A DNA stretch of 64,000 bases from Kappaphycus alvarezii (taxonomy: Eukaryota; Rhodophyta; Florideophyceae; Gigartinales; Solieriaceae): assembly GCA_002205965.3 (NCBI GenBank), contig NADL03000466.1, positions 1,240,001 to 1,304,000 of the forward strand, in the 5' to 3' direction. The position numbers and the translations under genes were made by a program. Under the pieces are notes generated by a model. It was not told the origin of the DNA. It did not search any database and saw only the letters and a program-made list of their open reading frames with translations. Below, in pieces: positions 15,146 to 64,000 of this stretch; position 1 is the first letter of the stretch; every line of letters starts with the position of its first letter.

Positions 15146-18100
15146 AGTTTGGAGCGGAACTTAAGGGAATCAGTGAGTAATTAGGAGAGAGATGTCAGGG
15201 CAACAGATGTACCTAGCAACTTTATGCCCAGGGTGGGAGTGTCGGCTGAGATGGACGTTAGAGGTAGTGAAGCGGCGCAAAGAAGGTTTTTTTTGGGGGT
15301 GTAGAGCTGGTGCAAAGGGATGCTGCCAGTGCTGGGTGAGTTGTGGATGACGGAGAGAGTGAGGTTGATATAGAAAAGAAAAGTCCCAGCCGGAAACTGA
15401 GGGGTATTTGTTCAAGGAGGGCCACATGAGCGGGTGATAGGTGACGTGGTGAGAACTGAGACGGATGCACGCCGCGGAAGGAGTGAAGAACGTGGGGGAG
15501 CCGTAAGCGACGGAGACTGTTAAGGTCAGGATGAGGTAGAGACGGGAAGAGAGGGTGGTGGTGAAGCTGAGATGAGAGTGACGCTGCGTATGGATAGGGG
15601 ATCGAATAGAGGTTGAATCGGACAATCAGGTGAAAGGAAAGAGCTATGGGGCTAGGGCAGGGAGGGGAAGTGGACGGATAGGTACGGAGGACACTGAGCA
15701 GACTCGAGAACGGCGACATGATCGGGGAGGAGAATGGTAAGAATGTTAGAGGGTGATGAAATTTGTCTGACGTTGACGCTACCTCGGGAGTCCCAACGGG
15801 CGCTAGAGGGGAGGAGAATCGGAAGAAGGAGTAGAGTGTCGTCGGAGGGTTGAATAAGTGCAGTAAATGTGCTAGGGCGCGGGGAGGAAGGAGAGGAAGG
15901 GGTAAAAAGCGGAGGGGATGATGTAAGTATTCTGCCTCGAATGAGGATGGTGGAGAAGGTCACCTCCCTGAAGAGGGAGGTGAGATAGATGAAGGAAGAT
16001 TATAAAAGTGTTATTTTCTGTTTCAAATTTACACAGAATGAGGTAGAGCGAGATAGGGGGAGTAAGAAGGGCAGGAATTGCTGAGTGGCCTTAAAAATAT
16101 AAAAATTATGAAATATGTAGGCTTTATGTATCTGTTCAAGTGAACTTAGTTCAAATAAAGTCATTTTCGGGGAACGTAACCTGAAACTGAAGCCGTAGCG
16201 CCCGAAATTGGACCAGTATTGAGCCTTATTCAGCTCATATCCGTGATTTAAACAGTGGATCCAACAGACACAAGACTGTGGCCCAGTAAATCTCCGGCCT
16301 ACAGATGAAATGATTTGCTTCGATAGTTTTAATATCTGTTAGTAAGGTCTCGTATAATTTCTACAGGGTAACTAGAAGGAGATGGAAAATATTCCGATTT
16401 TTACAGCACTCTATTTTGACATTGTGTCAAACTGCAGTCAGTCAAAGCTTCTGCATTGACTAAAGAAAACCTGATGAAATATATATTGAGTAAAAATAAT
16501 CACTGCATTACATAGACGGCCCTGTGTGGATGAAAGCCGTGACTCAATCTTTCAAGCAACTGCGTACAATGCCTCAGATTTTAAATTTGTTTCTCGTTAA
16601 ATCTTTCCTTTGAACTTAAATGTATTTTAAAATAAACACAGGCACATTTATTTCCAAAAATGCGGCTTTTGGTCTTTAAAATTACCTCGACGGTAAATAA
16701 AATGCGCTACTCATGTTTAATATCAATTATAAATAATACTGTATAATTGGAAAATAATATTGCATATCCGTATTTCCTAACCATTTTCTAGTATCTATCA
16801 GCAAACATATGTAGAGTTTTGAAAAACCTCTTGGTTAACTTTGAAAATAAAAAAATCTTCTGCCTGATAATACTATTAAGACGAAATACCCTTAAAAGGA
16901 AATATATTATCTTAAAGAGCGCTAAAGAAGTGCAGCATTTCAAACAGACACACATAGTTGCCCAGGAATTTTCATCTATAATGGAACTTTTTAAAGCATA
17001 TTTCGTGTAATTGAGCTAATCAATTTTTTTCCTGAGAAATAATTTCCCAGCAACTGAACAGAGCACCTGAATTGGCAGTAAGAAGCAATTTAAGCCATAT
17101 AAGATGACATAAAATCTATCAACTCCAATTTCACGCACTGCATATCAGAGTAATTCGTCGTTTTCTATATACGAGATATGCGAACCTTGAGAAGTACGGT
17201 ATGATAAATTGTGTACTCCACTACAAAAATCCAGAAACGAATCCATACCGACTATAACTTCAGCTCTACCTGTTGGTTCTTATCTTTTTATTGAAACGGC
17301 GAAGTTGTATACATAGATGATCCATACGCGCGGGTGATAAAAAGTCCACAAAATACCCTCAAGAACTGGAAAAGGTTCAAATGACTGACTAGGAGCAAAA
17401 AAAGGATCAACGAATTATGTCGAAAATAATGCCACTGGTCAAGCAAGTCCCACTGCATCCCTGTAGCCTAATCTTGAATGCAGTCCCATGATGAAAAGAG
17501 GATAAATAATACTGAAGTGAGCACTTAAACACAAACATAACCTATGGGCCCCATTTTTTCTACATTCGTATTTGATTACCGTTTTTGCGGAATTGATTAT
17601 GGCACATGCTCTAAACAATATTAAAAAAATATATCAACAGATATGAAGCGAAGAACATGTTAAAAGATAGTTAAATTTATTTTTGGTTGCGTAAAATTTT
17701 GATTATCTATGATCAGAGGAACATACATTTGAAAAATCTTAAATTAAAAGGAACGAAAAGCTTTAAACAATATTTATTTGATATTTGACATCATCGCAGC
17801 TAGTGAAAACCCACAAGTTACTGTACATGGGCCTCTGTATGAGCAAATTGTTCTCTACGAGAAATTATTGCATATATTTGTCGGGAACGTATCTAAAACA
17901 TTCCTTTCAATTCCAAGAGAAAAGCTAAGTGTAAATATTAGAATACGGACAAATGCAAGCATACATACATGCATTAATGTAAAAGAACGTGTTATTTACT
18001 GCTTAATGGAAACGTCTTTTACAATATGAGTAAGATTTCCAAAGCTCTAAAAAAGCTGGTCAATCACTAAGCCAACAGCTAGAGGCTGGATGGCAAATTT

Positions 18101-18417
18101 ATTAAGTGGAAAATTTTTCATTTCAGGTCCGAGTATACTTAAAAAATCTCACAGAGCAATACAAATAAAATGTTCACGCAGAAAAAATCCATTTAAAACA
18201 TACCTATTTTGTGTAAAATAGCGATTCAAAGTTCTATTTTTTAATAGTGCCTCGCTTTTGAATTGATTCGTTTAAAATTTCCCTCGCAATTGGAAGAAAA
18301 TAATACATTCTTAATATGGAAACAGTTTCAGTTTCGGCGGCGTAAATATTCACCGCTCCGAGCATTAAATTACCATAAATCAGTGATGAAACATAAAATA
18401 GTTTATATCTCACAAAA
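15146..18417 (-). repeat. Duplicated block A, left copy
   Basis: The block is repeated almost identically, inverted, at 56,592-59,851. The part 15,146-16,080 is pyrimidine-rich on the minus strand and has open but Pro/Ser/Leu-rich frames in several phases (e.g. 15,170-15,625), which I do not trust as genes. A perfect 9-bp hairpin sits at 15,961-15,982. From 16,100 to 18,417 the block is AT-rich with only short frames. Identity with the other copy stops at ~18,417, after the shared run TTTATATCTCACAAAAAC. Confidence 0.88.
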
Positions 18418-18795
18418 ACCTGCTTTGGCTACAGCAAATTCCGTTATGATTAGAAGATGCTCTTCAGCCGTGAAGCGGGAGTGTCGACCTTTCTTTTCCC
18501 TCTCACAGCTATAATCAGGGGATTTGTTCATGGTGGCCTCTTCATTCGCTCTCTGAGTCGGATTACTCGACGCATCGGCCTCAGAATAAGCTGGTGTAGA
18601 GGTGATCGGAGGAGCTTGTGCAGGGGTATTCGGGTTTAAGATAGGTATAGGCTCAATTTTTTCAGGACTGGCTCGCAAGCAAGGGGCGCCTTGTGAACTT
18701 GCGAGCTGATTTGTAAATATGATCGACGATAGTGATGCTGATAGGGTGGCGGTGAAGAGGAGGATAGTAGCGGGGTGTTGGGGTTGGATAAGCAA
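18418..18795 (-). pseudogene. Truncated fragment with possible SANT/Myb-like segment
   Basis: A minus-strand frame (start ~18,795) has a Pro/Ala/Ser-rich stretch, then EREKKGRHSRFTAEEHLLII, which resembles the first helix of SANT/Myb-like DNA-binding segments found in some transposons. It runs into block A at ~18,417 and stops soon after at 18,403, so the domain is cut at the repeat boundary. The family call is tentative; only one helix is present. Confidence 0.3.
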
Positions 18796-19483
18796 AGGGG
18801 GGTTGGTCGGGATAGGGGGTCAAGGTCGGGGTAGGAGCGGTCTCGAAAGGACAAGTGCAGGATGTTTTCATGTACGGTTCCTGCCAAATATTTTCACAAG
18901 ACTCCTCACTAATTACTGTGATTTCAGTTCCACTCGTCACAAAAACATCATCTCGGATTCCCATAAATCATTACAGTCTGTAATAATTTAGTCATATTTG
19001 AAACTGAAAAGTGGTAGAGTAATCTCTCTAATGAAACAAGCCAATGGATATCTGAATCAAACCTTAATTTGGAATTATTATCTGCATCCAAATTTGATAG
19101 AAAATAAAAGTTTGGAAGAAATATGAAGAGTTTAAATATAGAAATAAGTTTTGCGACTATAAATAAGCACGATTTTTACTGCTTTGATTTGTGAGGTAAC
19201 GCTTGAGGAAATTTAGAAATACTGTTTTGAATGACGGTTATTAATTTCATTTAAAAGAAACTTGTCTCTCATGCTGTTTATATTCACCATTAAGATGAAT
19301 ACATTATGAAAATTCTAGTACGTATCTGTTCGCAAAGTATCATCAATTGATTACATATGTGATCAAATTTAAACATTTTTGAGACATTTCAGATTTACAT
19401 TTTCCTTTAAGTCCCTGCTAGCTGTACAAAGTTATATTTCAAAGCTACCAATTCTTCAATGACTAATTAAACTACTTATCTAT
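18796..19483. other. Unique stretch between blocks A and B
   Basis: AT-rich, with no supported gene. Its counterpart beside the right copy of block B would lie beyond the window end, so it cannot be compared. Confidence 0.4.
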
Positions 19484-19918
19484 CGCAATATCACTCAAAA
19501 TTTCGTTCAAGATAGTGAAATATAAAGACGGAAGTTTGCTCCCTGGAAGTAGGGTTCACACCAAAGTGCGCTTCCTTACATCTGAAGTCAATTGTAGGGA
19601 GTTGTATGGAACCAGCTAGAAGACAAAAAAATTTCAGAAACAGCCGTGGTAATCGTGAAAGTGGCTAACGGTTGAAGTTATGAAAGAATATTTTTCATTA
19701 ATTTGGAAATTCTGGACGATTTACAGGAGCAAGAAATTATATTATCCAGTTTTAAAGGAGAAAAATCTCACTTTCACGGGAAATGTGTAGTTTGATGCCG
19801 AAATCAATGAGCTCTGGCAGGCCTGTAGATGAAAGGACAGTGAACTTCGCTTTGGAAAGTAAGTATTCCAATGTTTGCTCAGCAGGTGAAAATTTAAGGG
19901 TTTAGGAGTTTCATTCTC

Positions 19919-20783
19919 GTGAACCGTTTCGATTTTGGCGATCACAGGAACTTTTGGGTCAATTCTTCTCCATTGAAGTACATGCAGAGTCCAATTTTTG
20001 GTAATATTATGCGACTTAGGAGGTTTGACATTGGCCTCCGTTTCAAATATTTCTCGGAATCCCAAACTCTGACAGAGGAAGAAGAATTCAGTTCCAGCAG
20101 GCGTTGGAGACTGATTAGAGACTTTTTCGAAGCAATCAAAGAGCATCATCCACTTCATATGAAGCCGTCAGACTCAATTTTTGTGGACGCAAAAATGTTA
20201 AGAGTTTATGGAATTAGCGGTAAGGGAATTTTGAGAGGACTTCAGAACTAAGTCGGTCTTGATAAGAAACCGGAAAATGGGTATGAACCTCGAACTGCCG
20301 AGTGTGGAGAAAGTAGCATGAAAATCAAAATAGAGATTCAGAAGTCTTCAGAAGACACTGAAAGTTCAAATACGGTATGTTTACAGCGGACAAAAGCAAT
20401 GATGCAACTTGTACAACATTGGTTCGGATCAGATAGGATTTTATGCGGTGCTTTTTTCTTTTCCTCCCGTTCAGGCTGCCGGAAAGTTGCTGGAGAAGTG
20501 TTTACGTTTCATTGGGGCTGCCAATAATTCTAATTCTTAGTTTCTGGTAGCCTTTTTTCAGGTTAAGAGGTCGCAGACCGAAGTGAGCACATGGAAATTA
20601 AAACTACCGCAGATGAAAATAAGATAGTTGCAGCTTTCATGTGGTTTGATCGAGAGAGGATTATTAGTCAGTACATATGGAACAAACAATGATGGCATTC
20701 CGATTTATCACGAGCGATGGAGATCTACTGCAGGACGAGAACAGCTTCTCAGTTCGGAAAAAGATACTACGAAAGTTTTGAAT
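19919..20783 (+). pseudogene. piggyBac-like DDE transposase, dead and truncated
   Basis: The protein resembles the transposase-IS4-like core of piggyBac relatives seen in algae and protists. FGNIMRLRRFD matches the RFE-type helix region, SIFVDAKMLRVYG the first catalytic Asp motif, and CGESSMKIKIEIQKS the following strand. MQLVQHWFGSDRILCGAFFFSS is the second motif region, where the usual D before the aromatic/F-S run is Gly here. After a putative intron (~20,500-20,561, ending in a pyrimidine tract and CAG), FMWFDRERG and GIPIYHERW match the strand before the third Asp. An in-frame TAA lies at 20,249-20,251, and the C-terminus with the third Asp is cut off by LTR sequence at 20,784. It therefore cannot be active. 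Confidence 0.75.
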
Positions 20784-21258
20784 TGTAACAGGAACTCTTA
20801 CTGTAATCCAACAGCAGAGCTGATCTTGAAGATCTTATTATGATCTAATTTTTGTTCATGTCAGCACAGTGCTCCCAGCAGGTACTATACTGTCCAGTAA
20901 GGGCACGTTTTCGATTGTCTACAACCATTGGTCTCGGTACTGTATATTCAACCGACTGGGACTGAGGGCGTGCAGTCCGGATCACTCGTTCCTCAGCTTA
21001 GACACAATATTATTGCAGGTGAATGGCGCTTATATGGTCAAATATCGACTTTACTAATATATTATTTGGATATATATTCCATGACTGACAATGACTTTAT
21101 CTACCCTGCCGTTGTAGATGGCGTTAACTTAGCTAACTAGTACATATACCTACGGAGCCACTAGGGTACCGGAATAAAGAGCAACCAAGTGTTAGTTCTG
21201 AACTTGAAAACAAACGTAGGCCTTTGCAGAAACCTTGCCAGCGGGAACTTTGGCTATT
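20784..21258 (+). repeat. Partial family-1 LTR in opposite orientation
   Basis: About 475 bp starting TGTAACAGGAACTC on the plus strand is a diverged 5' half of the family-1 LTR. It points opposite to the full LTR at 21,856-22,857. It truncates both the transposase on its left and the gag on its right. Confidence 0.7.
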
Positions 21259-21795
21259 GAGCTCTTGCAGACTTGAAAACATTGCCAACGGAGCGAAGGA
21301 TGGAGGTAGGGAACGCAACATCTTGTAGGTTTTCTCGGTCTCTGATATCTCCGTGTTGTATGCGGCTAGTTCCCCCACATTAGACAAAAAAGATGCCACG
21401 TGCTTATGGAAGTTGCCACTTCCTTGAAAATCAGGGAGTCCAGTTTTTGTTTGATATTCTGGATCACTTGAGTTTTCGACATGGTGAAAATCCTTTCCAA
21501 CTCACCCTACAACTCGCCGGACGTTTTGTCATCGTCGTAAACGAAAATTCTTGTCTGCAAAGCCACGGAATCTCCGAGACAAAAAAATGCTCCCTTTAGC
21601 TATTGCGTTCTTGAGGGTCCATACCTCCAAAGCGTAACTTGACGCGGCTCGACTCGTCGGCTTTGGTTTGAGTCCAAAGAGGAGCGGATCGGACCTAAGT
21701 AAGTAGGCCTTCATTTTTCGGCGCCTTTGTATGAAATCGGCTGGGACTTTGAGCTTTGGCACTCTGCTCAGGGAGTCGTTGTCGTCGCCCGCCAT
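21259..21795 (-). pseudogene. copia-type gag remnant (UBN2-like), left copy
   Basis: Starting MAGDDNDSLSRVPKLKVPAD at 21,795, the product has the capsid signature of plant/protist copia gag: ALEVWTLKNAIAKGSIFLS, then after a frame change LERIFTMSKTQVIQNIKQKL, GELAAYNTEISETE and MLRSLPPSFAPLAMF. A stop and one frameshift interrupt it. It is cut off before any zinc knuckle by the inverted LTR fragment. It lies 60 bp behind the full LTR in the correct orientation, so the pair is the 5' end of one element. Confidence 0.75.
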
Positions 21796-21855
21796 GGTTA
21801 GTCGCAGTGTAAAAAAAAGAAGTGAAAGAGCACGCCTTAACTATCTTCTACGCTT

Positions 21856-22857
21856 TGTAGTGCAATGCGTGGTGCGCAGTTCTTCTCGTCTAGGAACGGA
21901 ACACCGTCAGACAATGAGAAACCCAACAAACACACAAGAAGACCCACAGGGTGTTCGCAGTCCCTCTTTCTCTTTAAGCACCATGCGATGCAGCAGCACA
22001 GCTCGCCGACGGCGAGGAGAAATGGGGTTGGAAGAGCGGGGTAATTACTTGGACGGCTGGACGGTATACTTGTCCTCCTGTTTGCAAGGCCTGACCGTGG
22101 TCCGCGGAATGCTAGAAACTTGGTATCGATCGATGCTAAAGAACCGTATACACCAGGGATGTAACAGTAGCACTGGACAAAGAAGATGTAGTATTGGGTC
22201 AGCTGTGCTGAATATCTCCTTTGGAGATAAGGATTTTGTCACCAGCGACAACCTTGAAGTTCCTATTTGTATATAGACGCCGGAGTCCGGGGCGCCAGGC
22301 GTGAGTAAATCACAAACAAACAATAAAAGGGGTTGTATAGTGTTGGATAGAGAGGGGTGAATAGAAAGGGAGACCAGGGCGGATAAACGTGGCTATAGCC
22401 AAAGTTGCCGTTAGAAAGATTTCTGCAAAGGCGGAAGTTGGGAGTTAAGTTCAGAGCTAGCACTGGGGTGGCTGTTTAATGTGGAGCCCTAGTAGCCATG
22501 TAGGCATAAATACTAGTTAACTAGGTTAGGGTTATCTAAGACTACGGGTGAGTGAGGTTAGGGTCAGCAAGTTAGGGAGATCCAAGTAAGAGATAAGCAA
22601 AGTCGATACTTGGCCCAATAGGTGCCTTTCACTTGCGAAAATATCAGGTCCCATTTGGGGGCCGAGTGGTCCATATTGCAAGCCCTCAAGCACCATCGGG
22701 TGAGGATACAGTACCAAAAATAATAGTGGGCGACAAAAGAAAATTGCCGTTACTGTACAGTACAGTGCCTGCTGGTTAGCAGTGAATCAGACCCAAAAAA
22801 GATCACCAAAATTAGATCTGCCGATGGCAGCACATTATGTGTGCCAATTACACTACA
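21856..22857 (-). repeat. ~1 kb LTR, family 1, copy 3 (left block B)
   Basis: The 1,002-bp LTR begins TGTAGTGTAATTGG and ends TTGCACTACA on the minus strand, giving TG...CA ends inside a longer terminal inverted repeat (TGTAGTG / CACTACA). It is essentially identical to 60,627-61,628. Confidence 0.9.
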
Positions 22858-23562
22858 CGCTTGGCAAAGGATTCTTTTTCTATAACCTTGACAGTCTTCC
22901 ATCACCGTCTACAGCTTTGATAGGGTCGGACCCTTGGCCTTCGAATACTCTTCGTTGAAAAGGTCGGAACTCGGACCTCAGGTAAGATGCTACTGGTGCA
23001 GAAGTCGGACCTCAGACCCCTGGTAAGATTCTCCTGGTGCAGATGTAGGACCCCAGAACCCCAGTGAGAAACTCTGGTTGTGTTCTTGTATACCAAAGAA
23101 TACCGCAACAAAAATCCTCAATAACACCCACAGGCAGCCAACTATTATGTCCAATAGTAGTCCTTCGCACTGCTCCAGACCCGCGCCGGTACCCTAGCGT
23201 CAGCGCTCTCTAGGCTCCAGGCCACGGCTCATTATCCACAAAAGAAGCAGGCGGTATTCCAACAACACTCGAGCACAGCAGATCACTGAACATGACCGAA
23301 GATCAGCGAAGCCAACCAAACGATAAAATAAGAAGGCAACAATCTCCAACCACCTGAAGTTTGTGGGCCTTCGTGTGCTTCCGTGCCTCTTGTCCAGTAA
23401 CCCTGGCCGTAGCACTCTGTAGGTTGCAGGACAAGAGGAGTTGGTGAGGTGGAGAATGGAGACGCGCGGCAAAAGTGGAAGACGAGGGTAGACTGATGGA
23501 TGTGGACGTGAGAGATCCACAGGTAGGTTGAGGTAGACGACTCAGGCGATGCTACCATGCAG
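22858..23562 (-). other. Tail of block B with short direct repeats
   Basis: A ~38-bp unit built on GGTCCGACTTCTGCACCAG (minus strand) is repeated imperfectly around 22,960-23,060. Frames on the minus strand are interrupted and unrecognised. Identity with the right copy ends at ~23,562. Confidence 0.5.
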
Positions 23563-24931
23563 GGATTGAGGGGAAAGGCAAGAGGGCAGTCCAAGCGATC
23601 TTCGCCCTTTTTTGCGTCGGAGAGCCGGCTCGCTCTCCGAGTACTGCTTTCATGTTTGCGTTCTGTTCAAATGAAAACTACTGTAGGCTCATGTGTTGAG
23701 TTCGATAAAAACAACGCGGGTGCGTCGAGGTGCTTTCTGACGCCAGTTTTGACCAATCAATGCCTGACATGGCTTTCGCTACACAACTAGCTCACTTGTC
23801 ATATCTGGCACTGACGGCCATGTTCCGCGCGACGTCGGTTAGCACCCTATATGCGTCTGGGTGCCGACCTCCGAGGGTGGATATGGGGATAGGCACGAGC
23901 GTACCTCTCTTGGAGGTTACAGTAGAAGATTCGTATCTTCTATTCTTCGCGGAGACGGCGGCATTGAGGGGGTGAGCGGATTAAACGTGTGGACCCTCCT
24001 GCGGGAGGGTGCCCGTGGGTTGACGAACTTCACGTCAAAGAAGTCCGTACATCTATTATTTCCCATCGCCCGGACGTCCGGACTCTTGCAATGAACCCCG
24101 TCCCGCGGTTCGATGGCGGGGTGGCGGGGCCGCTTTCTGCAGGCCTTGCGCGAAAGGATGCCTTGGCGGTCGTGTCGTCGGTTCTGCGCACACCATGCCT
24201 AAGTGGGGAGATGATCCCCGAAACAGTCGAGGGTTTCGGGGTAGTTTCGTCTCGGGCACGGCACGTCCAGAGGGAACAGCGGGATTTGGAAAAACACCGA
24301 GCGTACCAAACGCAAGGTGAAAAATTGCCACTGGACATGTGAGGACAGACTACAGTACGTACTGTACTGTACAGTGTACATGTACGGTACTGTACTATTC
24401 TGAATCTGGGTCGCAACCTGAGAACTGAATCAGTTCGATGTTCATGGTATGCATATACACGTGTACTACGCGTGTAGGTGTACATCGTGAGTTGTCATTG
24501 GCGCACATTAAATTGCAAAAATATTGCAACCAACAAGAACTTTACAGGCGGCGTTACATCGAGGACAAACCAAATAATTCATATAAAATCGCCGGGTTGA
24601 CGGTTTGAACATTTTCTTCTAGCGCGACACATCCAGGGTTCGCCTCATTTTCCAGCTTCTGACCGGAATCCAAATTTGTTTTTCCTTTTTGGCAAACAGG
24701 GTCTCTTCACATACGCTACTTCGTCAGAGCCGCAGCTGCACTTTCGACACAAGGCCGGGACTAAACGTTGCGTACGTCATTGTCACTTCCGACATTACTC
24801 AGCCCGTCTTTTCCGCCGTCATCAACAATCCCTCTTATCTTTCTCATCACAGTCCGCAATACACTGCCCAACCTAGGTCTTCTGCGCTGAGCGCAGTACT
24901 CCTTGTCAGTTAACTGCGCGTCTCTTACAAT
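23563..24931. other. Upstream region of the nucleoporin gene
   Basis: No convincing gene is seen; frames on both strands overlap and lack domains. A cluster of TACTGTACAGTA-type palindromes lies at ~24,350-24,400. The last ~250 bp before the nucleoporin start probably hold its promoter and 5' UTR, but no defined element can be pointed out. Confidence 0.4.
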
Positions 24932-49535: not shown

Positions 49536-49561
49536 CAAAAGTACAGTACAGCACCTGTAAT

Positions 49562-50030: not shown

Positions 50031-50048
50031 TGGCGCCGCGGGCACTCC
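50031..50048 (+). promoter_or_regulatory. Primer-binding site, tRNA 3'-end type
   Basis: TGGCGCCGCGGGCACTCC follows GAAATTACAG. TGGCGCC is complementary to the 3' end of tRNAs ending GGCGCCA. This contrasts with the internal-tRNA priming of the other two copia-like elements. Confidence 0.65.
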
Positions 50049-52197: not shown

Positions 52198-52928
52198 GTG
52201 GATCTTCGCACGCTCCGAGGAATTCTAACATCATTTCTTCTCATCACTTTTTTCAAGTCAATAATGATGGCTCCGCTGCCAAACCCAAGCTTAAATGTCG
52301 TTTGGTACCACATGGAAACAGGGAAAAAGCCAAAGAGTCTCTTTGAAGAGACTCTGCGACCGCTCAGTTGCCGACCATTTTGTCTGGTCCTGTCCATCGC
52401 TCGCCTAATCTGCATGCGTATTGCGACCATAGATATCAAAGGCGCGTACCTCCAGAGTGGAACTCTCAGTCAGGACATTTTCGTTCGACCACCCAAGGGA
52501 TGGGCATCCAGCTCTAAATCCTTAGGGAAGCTGTTTAAACTTGCCTACGGCCTGGTTGAATCCGGCCGCCTTTGGAAACTGGCAATTGAGAGATGTTTTT
52601 ATCTGATGAGGGATACACAGAAGTTCCTGGACTTCCTCAGCTGTTTATTAAAAGAAGAACTGATGGCCGAATGGGCATCGCTATAGAAAAATTTGTTGAT
52701 GATATTCTCATCGCTGTATCTCCTTCTGACCTGGAGAATTTTCATGAAGACATTGCCCGTCGCTTTACGGTTGGCCGTTTTCTAACTGGTTACGATTTCA
52801 ACTTCTACTCTTTCACTATACACCAACAAGAGAACTTCTCGGTCGTCGTTGATATCAAGGAGTACCTGGAGAATATAAATCCGTTGGATTCGCCGAAGGA
52901 CCGTCGCAAGCCATTAGATTGCAATTGA
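52198..52928 (+). pseudogene. Reverse transcriptase of the plus-strand remnant
   Basis: RIATIDIKGAYLQSG holds the first Asp, DIFVRPPKGW and KLAYGLVESGRLWKLAIE follow, then, one frame on, EKFVDDILIAVS is the DD box. Confidence 0.82.
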
Positions 52929-53163
52929 ATCATGAAGGAGCGGACAGATTATCTCTCACTCGCTGGTTCGCTCAATTTCCTGGGATATGGTTTTCTTCCG
53001 CAAGCAGCCTTCGCTGCCAGCTATCTTCAGCAATCCGTCTGTTCTCTCAAGGTCTGAAATATCTTCACTGTAAACAACGTCCTGCGTGAAATCAAGGTCT
53101 TGGACCCAGTTCTCTCTTCATCTCACCATCTCCCCTTCACTCTACAGTTTAAACTTACTTATG

Positions 53164-53695
53164 CTTCTTAGACGCTAGTCAAGGTTCATCCGCATATGGG
53201 CAGAAAAGATACATATCTTGTGTGTTCCTGCCTGCAGGGGTGATTGTGTATATTACGTCCTTGACTGGGCTAGCAACAAGCAGTCTCGAGTTTCGATTTC
53301 TTCTATCGGTGCAGAGATTCACGCTGCAGCCACCGCTTCTGAAGCGGTTCATTTTGTTCGCAGAACGTTTGCAAGTCGCTCACGGATCCCCCAATTCTCT
53401 TCTCTTCGTCTTGACAGTTCACTCGTTTGGGCTTTATTCAACCTTGGCAGCCCTTCAAGAAGTTTCGGACTATCGTATTCGCCCAGCAGTAGCACGTATT
53501 ATATATTCATTCGAGTGTGTGGTAATCTCCTTTCTTCAATGGATGCCCGGTCACTTCAATTACGTGTACGTGCTGACCAAGAGGAACCTGGACATGTTTC
53601 GTCGCCTAAAAGAAGTCTTGAAGTCGGGGGTTGTCAAACCCACAATATTCGGTAGGACAAAGCGTCGCAATAATGATCAGCAACCTTCCTGGTAA
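53164..53695 (+). pseudogene. RNase H of the plus-strand remnant
   Basis: DWASNKQSRVSISSIGAEIH in one frame (53,218-) and HSFGLYSTLAALQEVSDYRI, then FLQWMPGHFNYVYVLTKRNL in the next give the copia RNase H order ending in the LTKRN motif. Confidence 0.82.
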
Positions 53696-54732
53696 ATCAG
53701 AAGAGCAGACTTACAATTGTTTCGTTATCAAATGGTTAATTCATTGGTCAGGGTAGAAGAGCTAGTTTTTTGTCTGTGCCTCGAGTTCTGAGCTGGTCTA
53801 CTCGCTTCTCTACGCTTACGTGCTTACGTTTGCGCTTATCATTTTTCTTTCCCCTTGGTTGCGAAAAAGCTCGCAAAGGCCCGTCATGGCATGAAACTTG
53901 AAGCAGTCGCCCACGGAAGCATCGAAGACGCGCACGTCGAGTCTCATCGCATTCTACTCCGAAGAGTTAAATACAAGTCTGGAATTGCAGTTAATGGCCA
54001 CTGTGTGTTCGATGACTTCTCCCTTTTCATCCTTGCCCATCACTTGGATAAGAAAGGAACCATCTTCTCGCTCGAGTAACCATTGTACTGTTGACTCCAC
54101 CTCAATGTAAACGAGAGGCAGGGTGTACAATCTCATGTGATGCTCAAATCATCTTGCCCAAGAACCTATACATCGATCGGGTACTGGTCCCTTTACAAGT
54201 AGTTCTTTCGCAACCATCTATCCTTTCATCCTCCACGGCAAGTTTCATAAAGCCGCACGCATGCACTCGCGACTCACGCATTGGACAGGTACCTTTGTTC
54301 CGTGTATTATCAAGTCGGCAGAAATCGAGGATGGCCCTCTGTTTCCGGGACTAGTGAGATCTTAAGAGGAGTCTTTGTTCTTCACGCACCAAGAGTATAT
54401 CTTGGCTGCCAAGTTTGTTGCTGATTCTTCTTATAAACGGAGCACAACTCCCCCAATTTCCCCTTCCTTCTCGATTTCGGATAGAATTAGGCTTCCAGGA
54501 CACCGCTCAATTAAATCTGTCCACTTTACCCTGCTGACGTTGACGGAGTAGAATTTCACTTCCCAGAAGTCTGCCACGCAAACCCCTGCATGCTCGGATG
54601 CATAAAAGCAGCTTTCCTTTCAGACATGTCGCCTTCATGATGCGTACGTAATCCTCTTGATTGAATATGGTGTGAAGTCAACAAGTTGACGAGAATCCAT
54701 TGCATCCATGTCATCAAGAAAAGCCGAACCGC
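53696..54732. other. Gene-less stretch with an odd minus-strand frame
   Basis: The minus strand at 54,136-53,870 reads VQWLLEREDGSFLIQVMGKD and, past one stop, RVFDASVGDCFKFHAMTG. This looks protein-like but is unrecognised, and may be a further transposon relic. The rest shows nothing. Confidence 0.35.
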
Positions 54733-54885
54733 AGTTCAGTTGACAGAATTTCTCCGTAACCCAGTTAATATCCAGTCTCCAGACGAGTGCCTTTCTCAGT
54801 AAACCAGTTGACAGTCAACTGGACAGTCATCCGTATTTTTCAAGGCGGTTGTGTTATGACTTCCAGTCGACTAGGTGAGTAATGG
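54733..54885. repeat. CCAGTCGACTGG-like repeat array, right
   Basis: It contains CAGTTGACAG, CCAGTTGACAGTCAACTGG (itself palindromic) and CCAGTCGACTAGG. Its outer edge is inverted relative to that of the array at 49,562. Confidence 0.7.
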
Positions 54886-56591
54886 ACCCAATCGTTCAGG
54901 AGTTGACAGTCAACTGCGCAGTCGTTTGGGGTGTGCAATGTAGTATCGTAATAGGGAAGAAATTCTTGCCGTACTGGGGGAACGAGAGGACAACATCACT
55001 AACAGCAGCGCGCACGCTTACATCACATCGTGGTGCCACCTTCGAGAAAAATATAATGAAAGGGGAGCTGGAGCTAGTAGCCCGGTCCGGATGTGATCTA
55101 GTTGCGGTTGGTTTAGGGGGAGTTATGATGCTAAAATGTGACTGCACTAAAACAAAGGAGCAAAGACACCAGTTTCTGTAGCCTGGAATTCGGAGAGGAA
55201 ATGCGTTCCGTTTCTCGCCATTTGCAGTAGTTGTGGATAGCCTGAAGCACGGACAGTCCATCTTTTCAGTTGATATCAATGTCAAGTAGTGTTTGGTCTA
55301 TTAATTGCGCCTGGGAAGGGGATTTATGGCACTTTGACTCAGCTTTTGCTTTTTCCGTTGACGAATGTAGTACTTCGGTACAAATCTACTGGATACCAAC
55401 CCACATATCTACCACAGTAAATTAACCCCCCATTTACACATGTAGTACTGGAATCGCCTTGCATGTACAGTACGGAATATTGTATTTTAATACATGTTCC
55501 ATACAATCAATCCCTTCTCCGACACACCCTACCTCGGCTTTCGTTGCAGTAAACCATCTTCTGGTTACTTATTAAGTCAGTTTAAAAAGCCTGTGATTCT
55601 GCATTACCATGTTAATTACTTCGCGAGGAGAATTTCTTCTACACTGCGCATACTAATCTCTTAAGACTGACATGGCTGAAGGACCAACCTTGATTCTCTC
55701 CAATGGACGAGGTGAGCATAAGTTCAACCAATTCAAACTTCCTCCGCAGCCTGTTATTGAAGTGAGATGACAATGATTACAGAGATCTGCCACCAAATTC
55801 GTGAGATGAAAAATGTCTGTGAAGTCTACGTCTTTTTTTGTTGAAAAAAGAAGTCTGAGAAGGCTATAAACGGAGAAAAGGTCGTGTGTTAGGACAGGGG
55901 GACTTCTATTTCCGTCCGATGTTATCAGACATCACATGTAGCTGTCTGCGAGGCCTTTCGTTTTTCATACTAGCGCTTCAGTTGCAGTACATTTAAAACG
56001 CACCTGATAACGGTTTCACGCAAAAAATCTTTGATTATAACAGAGTCTTTAAAAATTTATTGGAAACTAATGTATTGCATGAAATTCCTTCCTTAAATAA
56101 ATTCCCGAAGTACCGAATGTGGCGTGAATTCTGACAGAAAGTCTATATTTCAGATGAGAAATCAAAAATCACAATTTAGCAGTTGCAGCATAGTGCATTG
56201 GCGACGCTTTCGGCGGATTTAAGTAGCGTAGGCTAATCGAGAGGCACTTATTGCGTGAAATAATTTAATTTTATAGAGCTTATTATGGTGATTTTATAGT
56301 AAAGTGAGACTGCTAAATCACTGTTGGGACTAAATTTTAAATAACCATTTTATATTGTAATGTATTCGTATCCACGGCAAAAAAATTTGTTCCATGACAT
56401 AGGAGCATACATAGTACATTATTTAAGTATTTAATCGTATTTCTTTTGTTCTAGTAACATTTTATGATGTTTAGGAAGTGGAGAACATATTTTAATAAAG
56501 TTAAAGTTACTTAAAATTTATCTCTTATGTAATCATTATATTATTTTATAAAATAATAAACTGTTTGCTTTGGAATTTTGTTGATGTTTTT
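54886..56591. other. Mostly AT-rich gene-less stretch
   Basis: A 100-codon plus-strand frame (54,882-55,181) and an overlapping antisense frame exist but show no domain. From 55,300 the sequence is AT-rich with nothing recognised up to the edge of block A. Confidence 0.5.
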
Positions 56592-59500
56592 GTGAGATAT
56601 AAACTATTTTATGTTTCATCACTGGTTTATGGTAATTTAATGCTCGGAGCGGTGAATATTTACGCCGCCGAAACTGAAACTGTTTCCATATTAAGAATGT
56701 ATTATTTTTTCCAATTGCGAGGGAAATTTTAAACGAATCAATTCAAAAGCGAGGCACTATTAAAAAATAGAACTTTGAATCGCTATTTTACACAAAATAG
56801 GTATGTTTTAAATGGATTTTTTTCTGCGTAACATTTTATTTAGTATTGCTGTGAGATTTTTTAAGTATACTCGGACCTGAAATGAAAAATTTTCCACTTA
56901 ATAAATTTGCCATCCAGCCTCTAGCTGTTGGCTTAGTGATTGACCAGCTTTTTAGAGCTTTGGAAATCTTACTCTATTGTAAAAGACGTTTCCATTCAGC
57001 AGTAAATAACACGTTCTTTTACATTAATGCATGTATTTAGTGCTTCATTGTCCGTATTCTAATATTTACACTTAGCTTTCTCTTGGAATTGAAAGGAATG
57101 TTTTAGATACGTTCCCGACAAAATATATGCAATAATTTCTCGTAGAGAACAAATTTGCTCATACAGAGGCCCATGTACAGTAACTTGTGGGTTTTCACTA
57201 GCTGCGATGATGTCAAATATCAAATAAATATTTTTAAAGCTTTTCATTCCTTTTAAATTAAGATTTTTCAAATGTATGTTCCTCTGATCATAGATAATCA
57301 AAATTTTACGCAACCAAAAATAAATTTAACTATCTTTTAACATGTTCTTCGCTTCATATCTGTTGATCATATTTTTTTAATATTGTTTAGAGCATGTGCC
57401 ATAATCAATTCCGCAAAAACGGTAATCAAATACGAATGTAGAAAAAATGGGGCCCATAGGTTATGTTTGTGTTTAAGTGCTCACTTCAGTATTATTTATC
57501 CTCTTTTCATCATGGGACTGCATTCAAGATTAGGCTACAGGGATGCAGTGGGACTTGCTTGACCAGTGGCATTATTTTCGACATAATTCGTTGATCCTTT
57601 TTTTGCTCCTAGTCAGTCATTTGAACCTTTTCCAGTTCTTGAGGGTATTTTGTGGACTTTTTATCACCCGCGCGTATTGGATCATCTATGTATACAACTT
57701 CGCCGTTTCAATAAAAAGATAAGAACCAACAGAGAGCTGAAGTTATAGTCGGTATGGATTCGTTTCTGGATTTTGTAGTGGAGTACACAATTTATCATAC
57801 CGTACTTCTCAAGGTTCGCATATCTCGTATATAGAAAACGACGAAGTACTCTGATATGCAGTGCGTGAAATTGGAGTTGGTAGATTTTATGTCATCTTAT
57901 ATGGCTTAAATTGCTTCTTACTGCCAATTCTGGTGCTCTGTTCAGTTGCTGGGAAATTATTTCTCAGGAAAAAAATTGATTAGCTCAATTACACAGAAAT
58001 AATGCTTTAAAAAGTTCCATTATAGATGAGAAATACCTGGGCAACTATGTGTGTCTGTTTGAAATGCTGCACTTCTTTAGCGCTCTTTAAGATAATATAT
58101 TTCCTTTTAAGGGTATTTCGTCTTAATACTATTATCAGGCAGAAGATTTTTTTATTTTCAAAGTTAACCAAGAGGTTTTTCAAAACTCTACATATGTTTG
58201 CTGATAGATACTAGAAAATGGTTAGGAAATACGGATATGCAATATTATTTTCCAATTATACAGTATTATTTATAATTGATATTAAACATGAGTAGCGCAT
58301 TTTATTTACCGTCGAGGTAATTTTAAAGACCAAAAGCCGCATTTTTGGAAATAAATGTGCCTGTGTTTATTTTAAAATACATTTAAGTTCAAAGGAAAGA
58401 TTTAACGAGAAACAAATTTAAAATCTGAGGCATTGTACGCAGTTGCTTGAAAGATTGAGTCACGGCTTTCATCCACACAGGGCCGTCTATGTAATGCAGT
58501 GATTATTTTTACTCAATATATATTTCATCAGGTTTTCTTTAGTCAATGCAGAAGCTTTGACTGACTGCAGTTTGACACAATGTCAAAATAGAGTGCTGTA
58601 AAAATCGGAATATTTTCCATCTCCTTCTAGTTACCCTGTAGAAATTATACGAGACCTTACTAACAGATATTAAAACTATCGAAGCAAATCATTTCATCTG
58701 TAGGCCGGAGATTTACTGGGCCACAGTCTTGTGTCTGTTGGATCCACTGTTTAAATCACGGATATGAGCTGAATAAGGCTCAATACTGGTCCAATTTCGG
58801 GCGCTACGGCTTCAGTTTCAGGTTACGTTCCCCGAAAATGACTTTATTTGAACTAAGTTCACTTGAACAGATACATAAAGCCTACATATTTCATAATTTT
58901 TATATTTTTAAGGCCACTCAGCAATTCCTGCCCTTCTTACTCCCCCCTATCTCGCTCTACCTCATTCTGTGTAAATTTGAAACAGAAAATAACACTTTTA
59001 TAATCTTCCTTCATCTATCTCACCTCCCTCTTCAGGGAGGTGACCTTCTCCACCATCCTCATTCGAGGCAGAATACTTACATCATCCCCGCTTTTTACCC
59101 CTTCCTCTCCTTCCTCCCCGCGCCCTAGCACATTTACTGCACTTATTCAACCCTCCGACGACACTCTACTCCTTCTTCCGATTCTCATCCCCTCTAGCGC
59201 CCGTTGGGACTCCCGAGGTAGCGTCAACGTCAGACAAATTTCATCACCCTCTAACATTCTTACCATTCTCCTCCCCGATCATGTCGCCGTTCTCGAGTCT
59301 GCTCAGTGCCCTCCGTACCTATCCGTCCACTTCCCCTCCCTGCCCTAGCCCCATAGCTCTTTCCTTTCACCTGATTGTCCGATTCAACCTCTATTCGATC
59401 CCCTATCCATACGCAGCGTCACTCTCATCTCAGCTTCACCACCACCCTCTCTTCCCGTCTCTACCTCATCCTGACCTTAACAGTCTCCGTCGCTTACGGC

Positions 59501-59851
59501 TCCCCCACGTTCTTCACTCCTTCCGCGGCGTGCATCCGTCTCAGTTCTCACCACGTCACCTATCACCCGCTCATGTGGCCCTCCTTGAACAAATACCCCT
59601 CAGTTTCCGGCCGGGACTTTTCTTTTCTATATCAACCTCACTCTCTCCGTCATCCACAACTCACCCAGCACTGGCAGCATCCCTTTGCACCAGCTCTACA
59701 CCCCAAAAAAACCTTCTTTGCGCCGCTTCACTACCTCTAACGTCCATCTCAGCCGACACTCCCACCCTGGGCATAAAGTTGCTAGGTACATCTGTTGCCC
59801 TGACATCTCTCTCCTAATTACTCACTGATTCCCTTAAGATCCGCTCCAAAC
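56592..59851 (+). repeat. Duplicated block A, right copy
   Basis: It matches 15,146-18,417 in inverted orientation nearly throughout. It starts after a clean break at ~56,592 and ends where the family-1 LTR begins. Hairpin CACCTCCCT-CTTC-AGGGAGGTG lies at 59,021-59,042. Confidence 0.9.
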
Positions 59852-59921
59852 TGTAGTGCAACTGGAACTCACACTGTGCTGCCATCGGCAGAGCTGATTT
59901 TGGTGATCTTTTTTTGATCTT
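59852..59921 (+). repeat. 70-bp stub of a family-1 LTR
   Basis: TGTAGTGCAACTGGAACTC to TTTTGATCT equals the first 70 bp of the LTR that follows block A in the left copy. The rest of the LTR is absent and block B begins at once. Confidence 0.8.
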
Positions 59922-60626
59922 CACCTGCAATGGTAGCATCGCCTGAGTCGTCTACCTCAACCTACCTGTGGATCTCTCACGTCCACATCCATCAGTCTAC
60001 CCTCGTCTTCCACTTTTGCCGCGCGTCTCCATTCTCACCTCACCAACTCCTCTTGTCCTGCAACCTACAGAGTGCTACGGCCAGGTACTGGACAAGAGGC
60101 ACGGAAGCACACGAAGGCCCACAAACTTCAGGTGGTTGGAGATTGTTGCCTTCTTATTTTATCGTTTGGTTGGCTTCGCTGATCTTCGGTCATGTTCAGT
60201 GATCTGCTGTGCTCGAGTGTTGTTGGAATACCGCCTGCTTCTTTTGTGGATAATGAGCCGTGGCCTGGAGCCTAGAGAGCGCTGACGCTAGGGTACCGGC
60301 GCGGGTCTGGAGCAGTGCGAAGGACTACTATTGGACATAATAGTTGGCTGCCTGTGGGTGTTATTGAGGATTTTTGTTGCGGTATTCTTTGGTATACAAG
60401 AACACAACCAGAGTTTCTCACTGGGGTTCTGGGTCCTACATCTGCACCAGGAGAATCTTACCAGGGGTCTGAGGTCCGACTTCTGCACCAGTAGCATCTT
60501 ACCTGAGGTCCGAGTTCCGACCTTTTCAACGAAGAGTATTCGAAGGCCAAGGGTCCGACCCTATCAAAGCTGTAGACGGTGATGGAAGACTGTCAAGGTT
60601 ATAGAAAAAGAATCCTTTGCCAAGCG

Positions 60627-61628
60627 TGTAGTGTAATTGGCACACATAATGTGCTGCCATCGGCAGATCTAATTTTGGTGATCTTTTTTGGGTCTGATTC
60701 ACTGCTAACCAGCAGGCACTGTACTGTACAGTAACGGCAATTTTCTTTTGTCGCCCACTATTATTTTTGGTACTGTATCCTCACCCGATGGGCTTGAGGG
60801 CTTGCAATATGGACCACTCGGCCCCCAAATGGGACCTGATATTTTCGCAAGTGAAAGGCACCTATTGGGCCAAATCGACTTTGCTTATCTCTTACTTGGA
60901 TCTCCCTAACTTGGCTGACCCTAACCTCACTCACCCCGTAGTCTTAGATAACCCTAACCTAGTTAACTAGTATTTATGCCTACATGGCTACTAGGGCTCC
61001 ACATTAAACAGCCACCCCAGTGCTAGCTCTGAACTTAACTCCCAACTTCCGCCTTTGCAGAAATCTTTCTAACGGCAACTTTGGCTATAGCCACGTTTAT
61101 CCGCCCTGGTCTCCCTTTCTATTCACCCCTCTCTATCCAACACTATACAACCCCTTTTATTGTTTGTTTGTGATTTACTCACGCCTGGCGCCCCGGACTC
61201 CGGCGTCTATATACAAATAGGAACTTCAAGGTTGTCGCTGGTGACAAAATCCTTATCTCCAAAGGAGATATTCAGCACAGCTGACCCAATACTACATCTT
61301 CTTTGTCCAGTGCTACTGTTACATCCCTGGTGTATACGGTTCTTTAGCATCGATCGATACCAAGTTTCTAGCATTCCGCGGACCACGGTCAGGCCTTGCA
61401 AACAGGAGGACAAGTATACCGTCCAGCCGTCCAAGTAATTACCCCCGCTCTTCCAACCCCATTTCTCCTCGCCGTCGGCGAGCTGTGCTGCTGCATCGCA
61501 TGGTGCTTAAAGAGAAAGAGGGACTGCGAACACCCTGTGGGTCTTCTTGTGTGTTTGTTGGGTTTCTCATTGTCTGACGGTGTTCCGTTCCTAGACGAGA
61601 AGAACTGCGCACCACGCATTGCACTACA
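60627..61628 (+). repeat. ~1 kb LTR, family 1, copy 4 (right block B)
   Basis: The 1,002-bp LTR starts TGTAGTGTAATTGG and ends GCATTGCACTACA; same sequence as 21,856-22,857 inverted. Confidence 0.9.
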
Positions 61629-61692
61629 AAGCGTAGAAGATAGTTGAACAAGGCGTGCTCTTTCACTTCTTTTTTTTACACTGCGACTAACC

Positions 61693-62225
61693 ATGGCGGG
61701 CGACGACAACGACTCCCTGAGCAGAGTGCCAAAGCTCAAAGTCCCAGCCGATTTCATACAAAGGCGCCGAAAAATGAAGGCCTACTTACTTAGGTCCGAT
61801 CCGCTCTTTGGACTCAAACCAAAGCCGACGAGTCGAGCCGCGTCAAGTTACGCTTTGGAGGTATGGACCCTCAAGAACGCAATAGCTAAAGGGAGCATTT
61901 TTTTGTCTCGGAGATTCCGTGGCTTTGCAGACAAGAATTTTCGTTTACGACGATGACAAAACGTCCGGCGAGTTGTAGGGTGAGTTGGAAAGGATTTTCA
62001 CCATGTCGAAAACTCAAGTGATCCAGAATATCAAACAAAAACTGGACTCCCTGATTTTCAAGGAAGGTGGCAACTTCCATAAGCACGTGGCATCTTTTTT
62101 GTCTAATGTGGGGGAACTAGCCGCATACAACACGGAGATATCAGAGACCGAGAAAACCTACAAGATGTTGCGTTCCCTACCTCCATCCTTCGCTCCGTTG
62201 GCAATGTTTTCAAGTCTGCAAGAGC
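61693..62225 (+). pseudogene. copia-type gag remnant (UBN2-like), right copy
   Basis: It is the same broken gag as the left copy: start MAGDDNDSLS, one frameshift/stop near 61,977, end in the LPPSFAPLAMF region. One Leu codon region (SDPLFGL) differs from the left copy (SDPLLFGL). Confidence 0.75.
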
Positions 62226-62703
62226 TCAATAGCCAAAGTTCCCGCTGGCAAGGTTTCTGCAAAGGCCTACGTTTGTTTTCAAGTTCAGAACTAACACTTG
62301 GTTGCTCTTTATTCCGGTACCCTAGTGGCTCCGTAGGTATATGTACTAGTTAGCTAAGTTAACGCCATCTACAACGGCAGGGTAGATAAAGTCATTGTCA
62401 GTCATGGAATATATATCCAAATAATATATTAGTAAAGTCGATATTTGACCATATAAGCGCCATTCACCTGCAATAATATTGTGTCTAAGCTGAGGAACGA
62501 GTGATCCGGACTGCACGCCCTCAGTCCCAGTCGGTTGAATATACAGTACCGAGACCAATGGTTGTAGACAATCGAAAACGTGCCCTTACTGGACAGTATA
62601 GTACCTGCTGGGAGCACTGTGCTGACATGAACAAAAATTAGATCATAATAAGATCTTCAAGATCAGCTCTGCTGTTGGAATTACAGTAAGAGTTCCTGTT
62701 ACA
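62226..62703 (-). repeat. Partial inverted LTR, right copy
   Basis: Counterpart of 20,784-21,258. It faces the full LTR head-on with the gag remnant between them. Confidence 0.7.
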
Positions 62704-63568
62704 ATTCAAAACTTTCGTAGTATCTTTTTCCGAACTGAGAAGCTGTTCTCGTCCTGCAGTAGATCTCCATCGCTCGTGATAAATCGGAATGCCATCATTG
62801 TTTGTTCCATATGTACTGACTAATAATCCTCTCTCTCGATCAAACCACATGAAAGCTGCAACTATCTTATTTTCATCTGCGGTAGTTTTAATTTCCATGT
62901 GCTCACTTCGGTCTGCGACCTCTTAACCTGAAAAAAGGCTACCAGAAACTAAGAAATTAGAATTATTGGCAGCCCCAAAAACGTAACACTTCTCCAGCAA
63001 CTTTCCGGCAGCCTGAACGGGAGGAAAAGAAAAAAGCACCGCATAAAATCCTATCTGATCCGAACCAATGTTGTACAAGTTGCATCATTGCTTTTGTCCG
63101 CTGTAAACATACCGTATTTGAACTTTCAGTGTCTTCTGAAGACTTCTGAATCTCTATTTTGATTTTCATGCTACTTTCTCCACACTCGGCAGTTCGAGGT
63201 TCATACCCATTTTCCGGTTTCTTATCAAGACCGACTTAGTTCTGAAGTCCTCTCAAAATTCCCTTACCGCTAATTCCATAAACTCTTAACATTTTTGCGT
63301 CCACAAAAATTGAGTCTGACGGCTTCATATGAAGTGGATGATGCTCTTTGATTGCTTCGAAAAAGTCTCTAATCAGTCTCCAACGCCTGCTGGAACTGAA
63401 TTCTTCTTCCTCTGTCAGAGTTTGGGATTCCGAGAAATATTTGAAACGGAGGCCAATGTCAAACCTCCTAAGTCGCATAATATTACCAAAAATTGGACTC
63501 TGCATGTACTTCAATGGAGAAGAATTGACCCAAAAGTTCCTGTGATCGCCAAAATCGAAACGGTTCAC
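62704..63568 (-). pseudogene. piggyBac-like DDE transposase, right copy
   Basis: Minus-strand copy of 19,919-20,783 with the same in-frame stop (at ~63,236), the same Gly in place of the second catalytic Asp, the same putative intron and the same C-terminal truncation. It therefore duplicated after it had died. Near the intron the two copies differ by small indels. In this copy FMWFDRERGLLV reads without the frame change seen in the left copy. Confidence 0.75.
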
Positions 63569-64000
63569 GAGAATGAAACTCCTAAACCCTTAAATTTTCA
63601 CCTGCTGAGCAAACATTGGAATACTTACTTTCCAAAGCGAAGTTCACTGTCCTTTCATCTACAGGCCTGCCAGAGCTCATTGATTTCGGCATCAAACTAC
63701 ACATTTCCCGTGAAAGTGAGATTTTTCTCCTTTAAAACTGGATAATATAATTTCTTGCTCCTGTAAATCGTCCAGAATTTCCAAATTAATGAAAAATATT
63801 CTTTCATAACTTCAACCGTTAGCCACTTTCACGATTACCACGGCTGTTTTTAAATTATTTTGTCTTCTAGCTGGTTCCATACAACTCCCTACAATTGACT
63901 TCAGATGTAAGGAAGCGCACTTTGGTGTGAACCCTACTTCCAGGGAGCAAACTTCCGTCTTTATATTTCACTATCTTGAACGAAATTTGAGTGATATTGC

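Follow-up and report, generated by a model that had tools for sequence, protein, structure and literature searches.

How does a group of genes come to be bracketed by long inverted repeats whose blocks follow each other in the same succession on both sides? This question is raised by a stretch of 64,000 nucleotides of the Kappaphycus alvarezii genome, the window analyzed here, which corresponds to positions 1240001-1304000 of contig NADL03000466.1 (C462); coordinates given below are window positions, some of which run past 64000. Judged from the sequence, the odd order of the repeats is most readily understood as a scar that a chromosomal inversion left behind.

Structure of the repeats

Self-BLAST matched block A (15078-18419) to the reverse complement of 56586-59920 with 98.69% identity (15 mismatches, 24 gap openings) and block B (19485-23563) to the reverse complement of 59924-64000 with 99.27% identity (2 mismatches, 19 gap openings), an inverted recurrence at about 99% identity that is far beyond chance. 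Both inverted matches had been reported in the initial annotation with coordinates that proved right to within about 70 bases, and self-BLAST likewise bore out the reported order of A followed by B on the left and of their reverse complements in the same succession on the right. The 1,065 bases between the blocks on the left (X, 18420-19484) also belong to the repeated unit, which has a size of 8.48 kb and is present once on this side (15078-23563). The right side consists of two complete head-to-tail units, 56586-65061 and, outside the window, 65062-73542, each of them a circular permutation of the left unit, as had been claimed for the two sites. In the first of these units the inverted copy of A (A', 56586-59920, minus strand), delimited by self-BLAST and by comparison of the units, precedes that of B (B', 59924-64000, minus strand), which continues as X' to 65061 outside the window. 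The match of B up to 64000 had been correctly recognized, while its end at this position is only the window edge, since the array continues to 73542; an illusion of permutation created by that edge was rejected, as the right array comprises exactly two permuted units. The bracketing of a gene island by inverted repeats also stood, while its size, estimated earlier at about 33 kb, is 38.2 kb (18420-56585) when measured from the breakpoints.

A genome search, in which 40 of the 1902 first-look candidates for B were scored, found near-identical copies of A, X and full B in only three places, all of them in C462. Comparison of X with the sequence beyond 56585 gave a best score of 30, below the shuffle maxima of 31 and 36. 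Another near-identical pair is present in C462 at 1400001 and 1443188 (43 kb apart, 99.85% identity).

Comparison with an uninverted contig

Another contig of this assembly, C7, served as the uninverted comparison; it may be homeologous to the C462 region and not its other haplotype. When matches of at least 120 bases were considered, C7 aligned in the order 424-18418 (plus strand), 56585-55026, 44013-22857 and the rest of X-B (minus strand), and 73571-94000 (plus strand), with the island in the opposite orientation to C462. Within the inverted segment (18420-56585), minus-strand matches to C7 cover 25,833 of the 38,166 bases, and one LTR match lies on the plus strand. Both flank segments, which are duplicated in inverted form at opposite breakpoints in C462, are single in C7, where one diverged A, one diverged X-B and no repeat pair were found. 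A 10-kb probe from 90 kb to the left of the window matched 41 times, always with its last approximately 530 bases and never in C7, and its own place was also unlisted, so that this result bears only weakly on left-hand synteny.

At both outer ends of the right array the C7 sequence is continuous. At the ancestral join 56585/56586 a 1-kb probe runs through in C7, with bases 3-999 of 1001 in one piece, and the probe across 73542/73543 is continuous for 35 bases in C7 and resumes after about 630 extra C7 bases. Likewise, a 1-kb probe across 23563/23564 is continuous in C7. Two kinds of join are private to C462. The first connects the end of A to the start of X at 18419/18420, which is one end of the inversion, and its 1-kb probe splits to two places in C7 that are 46 kb apart; this join is repeated at 65061/65062, where 119 of 120 bases equal the left copy. 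The second connects the end of B to the start of A at 59920-59924 with a 3-bp loss just inside A, and its probe also splits in C7. It is repeated outside the window at 68396/68400, the two copies being identical from the join into A, the 3-bp loss included, and differing by one T about 5 bases inside B. Inspection by eye showed no shared bases at the A/X join, and at the B/A join GCAG lies near both ends, offset by one base. Transposon insertions apart, C462 has at this locus the four joins of C7 plus these two new kinds, both of which lack long homology. A and B were set aside as independent mobile elements, because the blocks end where the inversion joins lie. A 528-bp insertion with a target duplication at 18420, proposed from a 14-mer spanning the 56586 join that occurred in none of 20,000 Markov sequences, was dropped, since C7 continues through this join.

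Origin of the inversion

In the dupINVdup segment order a segment is inverted, both of its flanks are duplicated and two new joins are formed. The window probably represents such a paired-duplication inversion, of the staggered-break type, to which an extra unit on the right was added later. The ancestral order, which is kept on C7, would be L-A-N-D-R, where A is 3.3 kb, D denotes X-B in C7 orientation (5.1 kb) and N the gene island. If the break was staggered on one side over the length of A and on the other over that of D, or if a replicative template switch acted to the same effect, a single step would have turned N around and placed both edges at each end, giving L-A-D'-N'-A'-D-R with A/X and B/A as the only new joins needed. 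In this order the left copy of A (15078-18419, plus strand) would be the left-breakpoint flank segment in its original place, where it adjoins L as in C7 apart from an LTR insertion, and X-B on the left (18420-23563, plus strand), including 18420-19484, would be the inverted copy of the right flank segment. Later, one extra A'-D unit would have been gained on the right; the left breakpoint is its most likely template, via inverted homology, because the unit carries the same A/X join.

The initial annotation had suggested that the repeats can drive inversion of the island. While the island is indeed inverted relative to C7, the repeats look like a product of this inversion and are more likely its result than its cause, given that C7 has no repeat pair, that the outer joins are ancestral and that A/X and B/A lack long homology. 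The repeats are absent at both ends of the island in C7, a contig that is only a proxy for the uninverted ancestor of C462. Recombination between the repeats after, or instead of, the duplication-inversion event is possible, and the A/X join shared by the second right unit and the left unit suggests exchange between inverted copies.

Possible traces of such exchange lie at three sites for which C7 shows which shared state is derived. Among the copies of A (left A, a1 and a2) and of X-B (XB1, XB2 and XB3), site 20627 groups XB1 with XB2, site 18380 groups left A with a2, and site 16873 groups a1 with a2. With one informative site per segment, the three agree with one contiguous copied tract. 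It is conceivable, if somewhat doubtful, that the two inversion breakpoints still exchange sequence, and that a tract which starts in B (at or beyond 20627, perhaps beyond 22050), passes through X and the A/X join and stops near the end of A, somewhere between 18380 and 18181, was copied from left to right, adding a whole unit. If this is true, duplicated inversion breakpoints would serve as a relay through which copying enlarges tandem arrays, and the island could flip again.

If A/A' and D/D' arose in one event, they would be expected to show equal divergence. In filtered columns, left A differed from a1/a2 at 26 of 3,342 positions and XB3 from XB1/XB2 at 10 of 5,143 (p = 1e-4, A being higher), and a plain pairwise count within the window gave 15 differences for A and 2 for B (p = 0.0003). 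A hand count without edge and indel-shifted rows, from which the four X-B edge rows 18420-18423 and clustered A rows were dropped, gave 12 of 3,104 for A and 6 of 5,143 for X-B (p = 0.014); 10 of these 12 A sites stand alone and 2 lie beside shifted columns. Tallies of private differences varied with the alignment, because indels shift neighboring columns. The unequal divergence counts against a single-event origin of both duplicated edges, and gene conversion or uneven assembly quality could be its source.

Alternative explanations

A reversed order of events, in which the repeats came first and the inversion second, is unlikely. It would start with inverted A between tandem D copies in C7 orientation (L-A-N-D-A'-D-A'-D-R), and homologous recombination between A and the nearest A' would flip the island and leave the permutation as a crossover scar. 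Reversing a crossover of left A with the first A' does restore the exact C7 order plus a tandem array, and the same three informative sites fit this route equally well as the preferred one. At 18380, left A and a2 carry T while a1 and C7 carry C, and no difference private to left A follows 18181, which would place the crossover at 18181-18380; however, a 238-bp tail without private differences has a probability of P = 0.10 by chance. Moreover, this route takes more steps and requires the same two illegitimate joins, no chromosome with the intermediate structure was seen, and the unequal divergence is left unexplained here too.

That C462 was mis-joined at the repeats or by chimeric reads is improbable. 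The reading frame of SF3A2 alternates between frames, and for this reason the assembly seems to contain uncorrected indels; a misassembly would also be in keeping with the additional near-identical pair in C462 (43 kb apart, 99.85%). However, assemblers mis-join at long shared sequences, which the private joins lack; each kind of private join occurs twice, private substitutions and indels distinguish the three copies of A and of X-B, and both outer joins are independently present in C7.

Circularization of the 8.48-kb unit at the B/A join, followed by reinsertion of a dimer on the right, opened between 18419 and 18420, appeared attractive from the two permuted units, whose first and last bases are neighbors in the unit and whose closure joins match, and from an order flip that agrees with the signature published in PMC7450558, but is highly improbable and largely refuted, as C7 runs through both outer ends of the array, which are not new insertion joins, and the supposedly native donor join A/X is itself private to C462.

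Relation to known rearrangements

An inversion around housekeeping-type genes can, as seen here base by base, leave inverted duplicates at both ends, and the locus is a new, well-resolved example of a known rearrangement class. In human genomes dupINVdup is a named class of complex structural variants (PMC5338099). The present locus shares with this class the inversion with both flanks duplicated and the two new joins, while differing in its second A'-D unit and in the transposon-derived sequence of its flanks. For Drosophila, PMC4965816 attributes 17 of the 29 inversions fixed since the melanogaster-yakuba split to staggered breaks, with duplicated breakpoint stretches ranging from a few hundred bases up to 8 kb. 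The duplications described here fall within this size range; in contrast to the longer duplicated pieces in Drosophila, which include complete or partial genes, nothing beyond gag and LTR-like pieces was found in the edges, and one of the units was duplicated a second time. Circular-DNA-mediated segmental duplications (human cSDPs and eccDNA duplications), as described in PMC7450558 and PMC7188851, resemble our locus in the permuted order between copies and in joins of microhomology scale, whereas here both outer joins of the permuted array are ancestral, which leaves no insertion site. A permuted inverted repeat that resembles a circle insertion is here explained by an inversion with duplicated edges, which advises caution in circular-DNA readings. 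As in NAHR inversions between inverted repeats, long near-identical inverted repeats now bracket the island, but they are absent from the uninverted C7. The later growth of the right copy provides a testable case of breakpoint-to-breakpoint copying.

Transposon-derived sequences and genes

A solo LTR-like element of 1.0 kb (14149-15150, ends CG...CA, read by eye) has the 5-bp target duplication GTTTG on both sides, and C7 holds its empty site with a single GTTTG, as is characteristic of a solo LTR; alternatively, it may be a 1-kb terminal-inverted-repeat element. Block A begins inside its last approximately 80 bases, and the solo LTR that is cut by the B/A join is complete on the left. A second solo LTR-like copy inside B (21856-22863) has TG...CA ends, a 10-bp terminal inverted repeat and the target duplication CGCTT. 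Of the 40 candidates scored out of 1902, many match it over about 1,002 bp at other genomic places. The third copy, at 1034, has TG...CA ends without a clear target duplication. The idea that A and B carry the two LTRs of one element was rejected, since the approximately 1-kb repeats at 14150 and 21857 share 82.8% identity and are each flanked by a target duplication of their own, so that they look like separate insertions. A search of viral contigs with a 26-base LTR pattern gave no hits. RIP-type mutation found no clear support, only two LTR-like copies being slightly positive on the composite index (0.07 and 0.10). B also contains a Copia-type gag piece (21136-21501, minus strand; PF14223, E = 2.8e-4, 20.8 bits, below the curated cut-off of 27), and a second frame (21532-21805), which had no Pfam hit, resembles the upstream part of this piece by eye. 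Pfam searches of 10 open frames, of which 8 lie within A-X-B, gave only the weak gag match and a weak DUF3314 match (E = 0.023), and Rfam and tRNA scans of the whole window gave no hits. The genes of the island, at about 24 to 44 kb, are of housekeeping type and comprise an FG-nucleoporin-like gene (a reading made by eye), an Arf family member, SF3A2, a phosphomannose isomerase and a Vps18-like gene, whose family match scored below its cut-off.

Structure of the duplicated array

The initial annotation had described two blocks recurring in inverted form on the right, with A preceding B on the left and rc(A) preceding rc(B) on the right, and this arrangement was borne out by self-BLAST of the window, in which 19485-23563 (B) matched the reverse complement of 59924-64000 at 99.27% and 15078-18419 (A) that of 56586-59920 at 98.69%. 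The match of B stops at the final base of the window, which by itself therefore does not show where the block ends; flanks of 30 kb on the right and 20 kb on the left, numbered in continuation of the window, were added to obtain the full structure. The right side proved to be a head-to-tail pair, 56586-65061 and 65062-73542 (99.1% identical), and the left unit (15078-23563; A, X at 18420-19484, and B) aligns full-length, inverted, to 59924-68396. Read on the minus strand, the right array starts at its 73542 end with unit base 18420 and finishes at 56586 with base 18419; since these bases are neighbours in the left copy, the proposed circular permutation is real and the right array consists of exactly two units.

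In the assembly (336 Mb, 884 contigs) the window corresponds to C462:1240001-1304000. Genome searches placed near-identical full copies of A, X and B only in the left unit and the two right units, with all 14 candidates scored for A, all 38 for X and 40 of the 1902 first-look candidates for B, the last being limited because B contains an LTR. This 1-kb LTR-like element, which has many copies in the genome, lies at 21856-22863, 14149-15150 and 1034-2010, and a portion of it is also inverted at 20791-21257.

An Arf-family GTPase, SF3A2, phosphomannose isomerase and a Vps18-like reading all fall within approximately 24-44 kb of the window; the Vps18-like reading scored 21.5 bits for PF05131, under the cut-off of 23.1, and an FG-nucleoporin was read by eye. 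Judged by its genes, the source is a eukaryote. Solved SF3A2 chains match two alternating frames inside a few hundred bases, which we read as apparent uncorrected indel errors, so that indel counts between copies are less trustworthy than substitutions.

Comparison with a second contig

A second contig of the same assembly (C7), which we take to be either the second haplotype or a sister subgenome, carries the island in opposite orientation. Comparison of C7:144001-233999 with window coordinates -19999 to 94000 gave 41 matches of at least 120 bases, on the plus strand in both flanks (424-18418 and 73571-94000) and on the minus strand in the island (including 22857-38284 at 92% and 38299-44013 at 97%), where they cover 25,833 of the 38,166 bases of 18420-56585; a single plus-strand match there is to an LTR. 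The island inversion thus exists. No C7 match of at least 120 bases was found for 44014-55025, which holds transposon pieces.

C7 carries one copy each of A and X-B. Its A continues into what lies left of 56586 in C462, and its X-B, broken up by approximately 15 kb, continues into what lies right of 73542. This segment (C7:190832-206024), missing from C462 at 21257, terminates in a related LTR (C7:205500-206503) and also carries a second copy of 23558-23805. When the joins were tested with 1-kb and shorter probes, the probe across 56585|56586 aligned to C7 as a single piece over bases 3-999 of 1001, that across 23563|23564 aligned over bases 1-1000, and that across 73542|73543 aligned 35 bases beyond the join and picked up again after approximately 630 extra C7 bases. 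Probes across 18419|18420 (A to X) and 59920|59924 (B to A) were split between far-apart C7 places. The right array is thus bounded by old joins at both outer ends, and the only new joins are A|X and B|A. A 14-mer across one outer end (56582-56595) recurs inside X (18937-18950) and occurred in 0 of 20,000 sequences generated from a Markov model of X, yet that join is old according to C7.

A Vps18 probe had three matches, namely C462, C7 (99%) and one 88-base fragment elsewhere. C462:1400001-1410000 was matched by C7:294.7-308.7 kb, indicating that synteny reaches approximately 100 kb further right, while a probe 90 kb left of the window returned neither a C7 match nor its own place. Pieces of 1400001-1410000 recur near-identically at 1391439, 1443188 and 1465884 (one pair compared, 99.85% over 9.4 kb), and these recurrences across C462:1391439-1471719 are either recent duplications or an assembly loop. 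Substitution divergence between C462 and C7 is very uneven: five tested gene intervals differ by 0.3-1.9%, the stretch 27000-33000 by 4.6%, two pieces of X-B by 10-11% and A by 19%.

Origin of the rearrangement

Transposon insertions aside, C462 holds the joins of C7 plus two more kinds, so that the C7 order is the older one. With L and R as outer flanks, N the gene island, D the X-B block in C7 orientation and primes for inverted copies, L-A-N-D-R would have become L-A-D'-N'-A'-D-(A'-D)-R; if the unit in brackets is left out, the arrangement is that of a paired-duplication inversion, for which A|X and B|A are the only new joins needed. Because it needs fewer events than its main competitor, we favor a one-step inversion of this type followed by copying of the extra unit as the probable history. 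The initial annotation had suggested that the inverted repeats could drive inversion of the island; this is supported in part, in that an inversion exists, but it more plausibly gave rise to the repeats than resulted from them. At the B|A join a solo LTR is truncated; the left copy has it whole, and C7 has an empty site with a single GTTTG. To judge from these sequences, the LTR most likely entered once C462 and C7 had diverged but ahead of the inversion.

From the junction into A, the two B|A joins are identical and share a 3-bp loss; approximately five bases inside B they differ by one T. At 65061/65062 the A|X join agrees with its left-hand counterpart at 119 of 120 bases. Three sites were informative, in that C7 reveals the derived state: 20627 (XB1 = XB2), 18380 (left A = a2) and 16873 (a1 = a2), the labels denoting copies of X-B and A. 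A single tract copied from the left breakpoint, over A|X, into the right array would fit all three. They fit equally well with an array that existed beforehand and an island later flipped by crossing over at 18181-18380 between A and A', and left A has no private differences beyond 18181 (by chance P = 0.10); this order of events, costlier in steps, appears less likely to us.

Unequal divergence of the duplicated edges speaks against the inversion-and-copying history, since edges duplicated in a single event are expected to be equally old. In filtered columns, 26 of 3,342 differ between left A and a1/a2, and 10 of 5,143 between XB3 and XB1/XB2 (p = 1e-4); after hand pruning the figures are 12 of 3,104 and 6 of 5,143, respectively (p = 0.014); plain pairwise differences number 15 for A and 2 for B (p = 0.0003). 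This may reflect conversion between copies of X-B or a consensus of uneven quality. A circle-mediated duplication, which shares the order flip with this locus (PMC7450558, PMC7188851), was set aside as the source of the permuted array because the new insertion joins it requires are absent, both outer ends being old in C7.

The rearrangement belongs to an already known kind, of which this locus is a new example. In Drosophila, inversions of the staggered-break type leave duplicates ranging from a few hundred bases up to 8 kb, and one count attributes 17 of 29 fixed inversions to them (PMC4965816); this route is contrasted with recombination between repeats (PMC6861252), and a dupINVdup class is named (PMC5338099). 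Of the 10 papers listed for inversions with inverted-duplication breakpoints in fungal and haplotype contexts, none was recognisable as this locus.

Other repeats and base composition

An LTR retrotransposon with copia-like pieces lies at 3076-8622; its 543-bp LTRs are 99.3% identical, and it has an apparent 5-bp target duplication (AAGGC) and is absent at the corresponding C7 place. At 44018-49535 and 51180-53695, towards the right end of the inverted island, there are an LTR-like direct repeat pair (86% identical, spaced by approximately 5.1 kb) and, apart from it, copia-type reverse transcriptase pieces; this stretch lacks a C7 match. Strand asymmetry is strong in transposon-rich DNA at 9001-13000 and 15001-16000, with a GC skew of -0.49 between 10 and 11 kb and of +0.48 between 15 and 16 kb.
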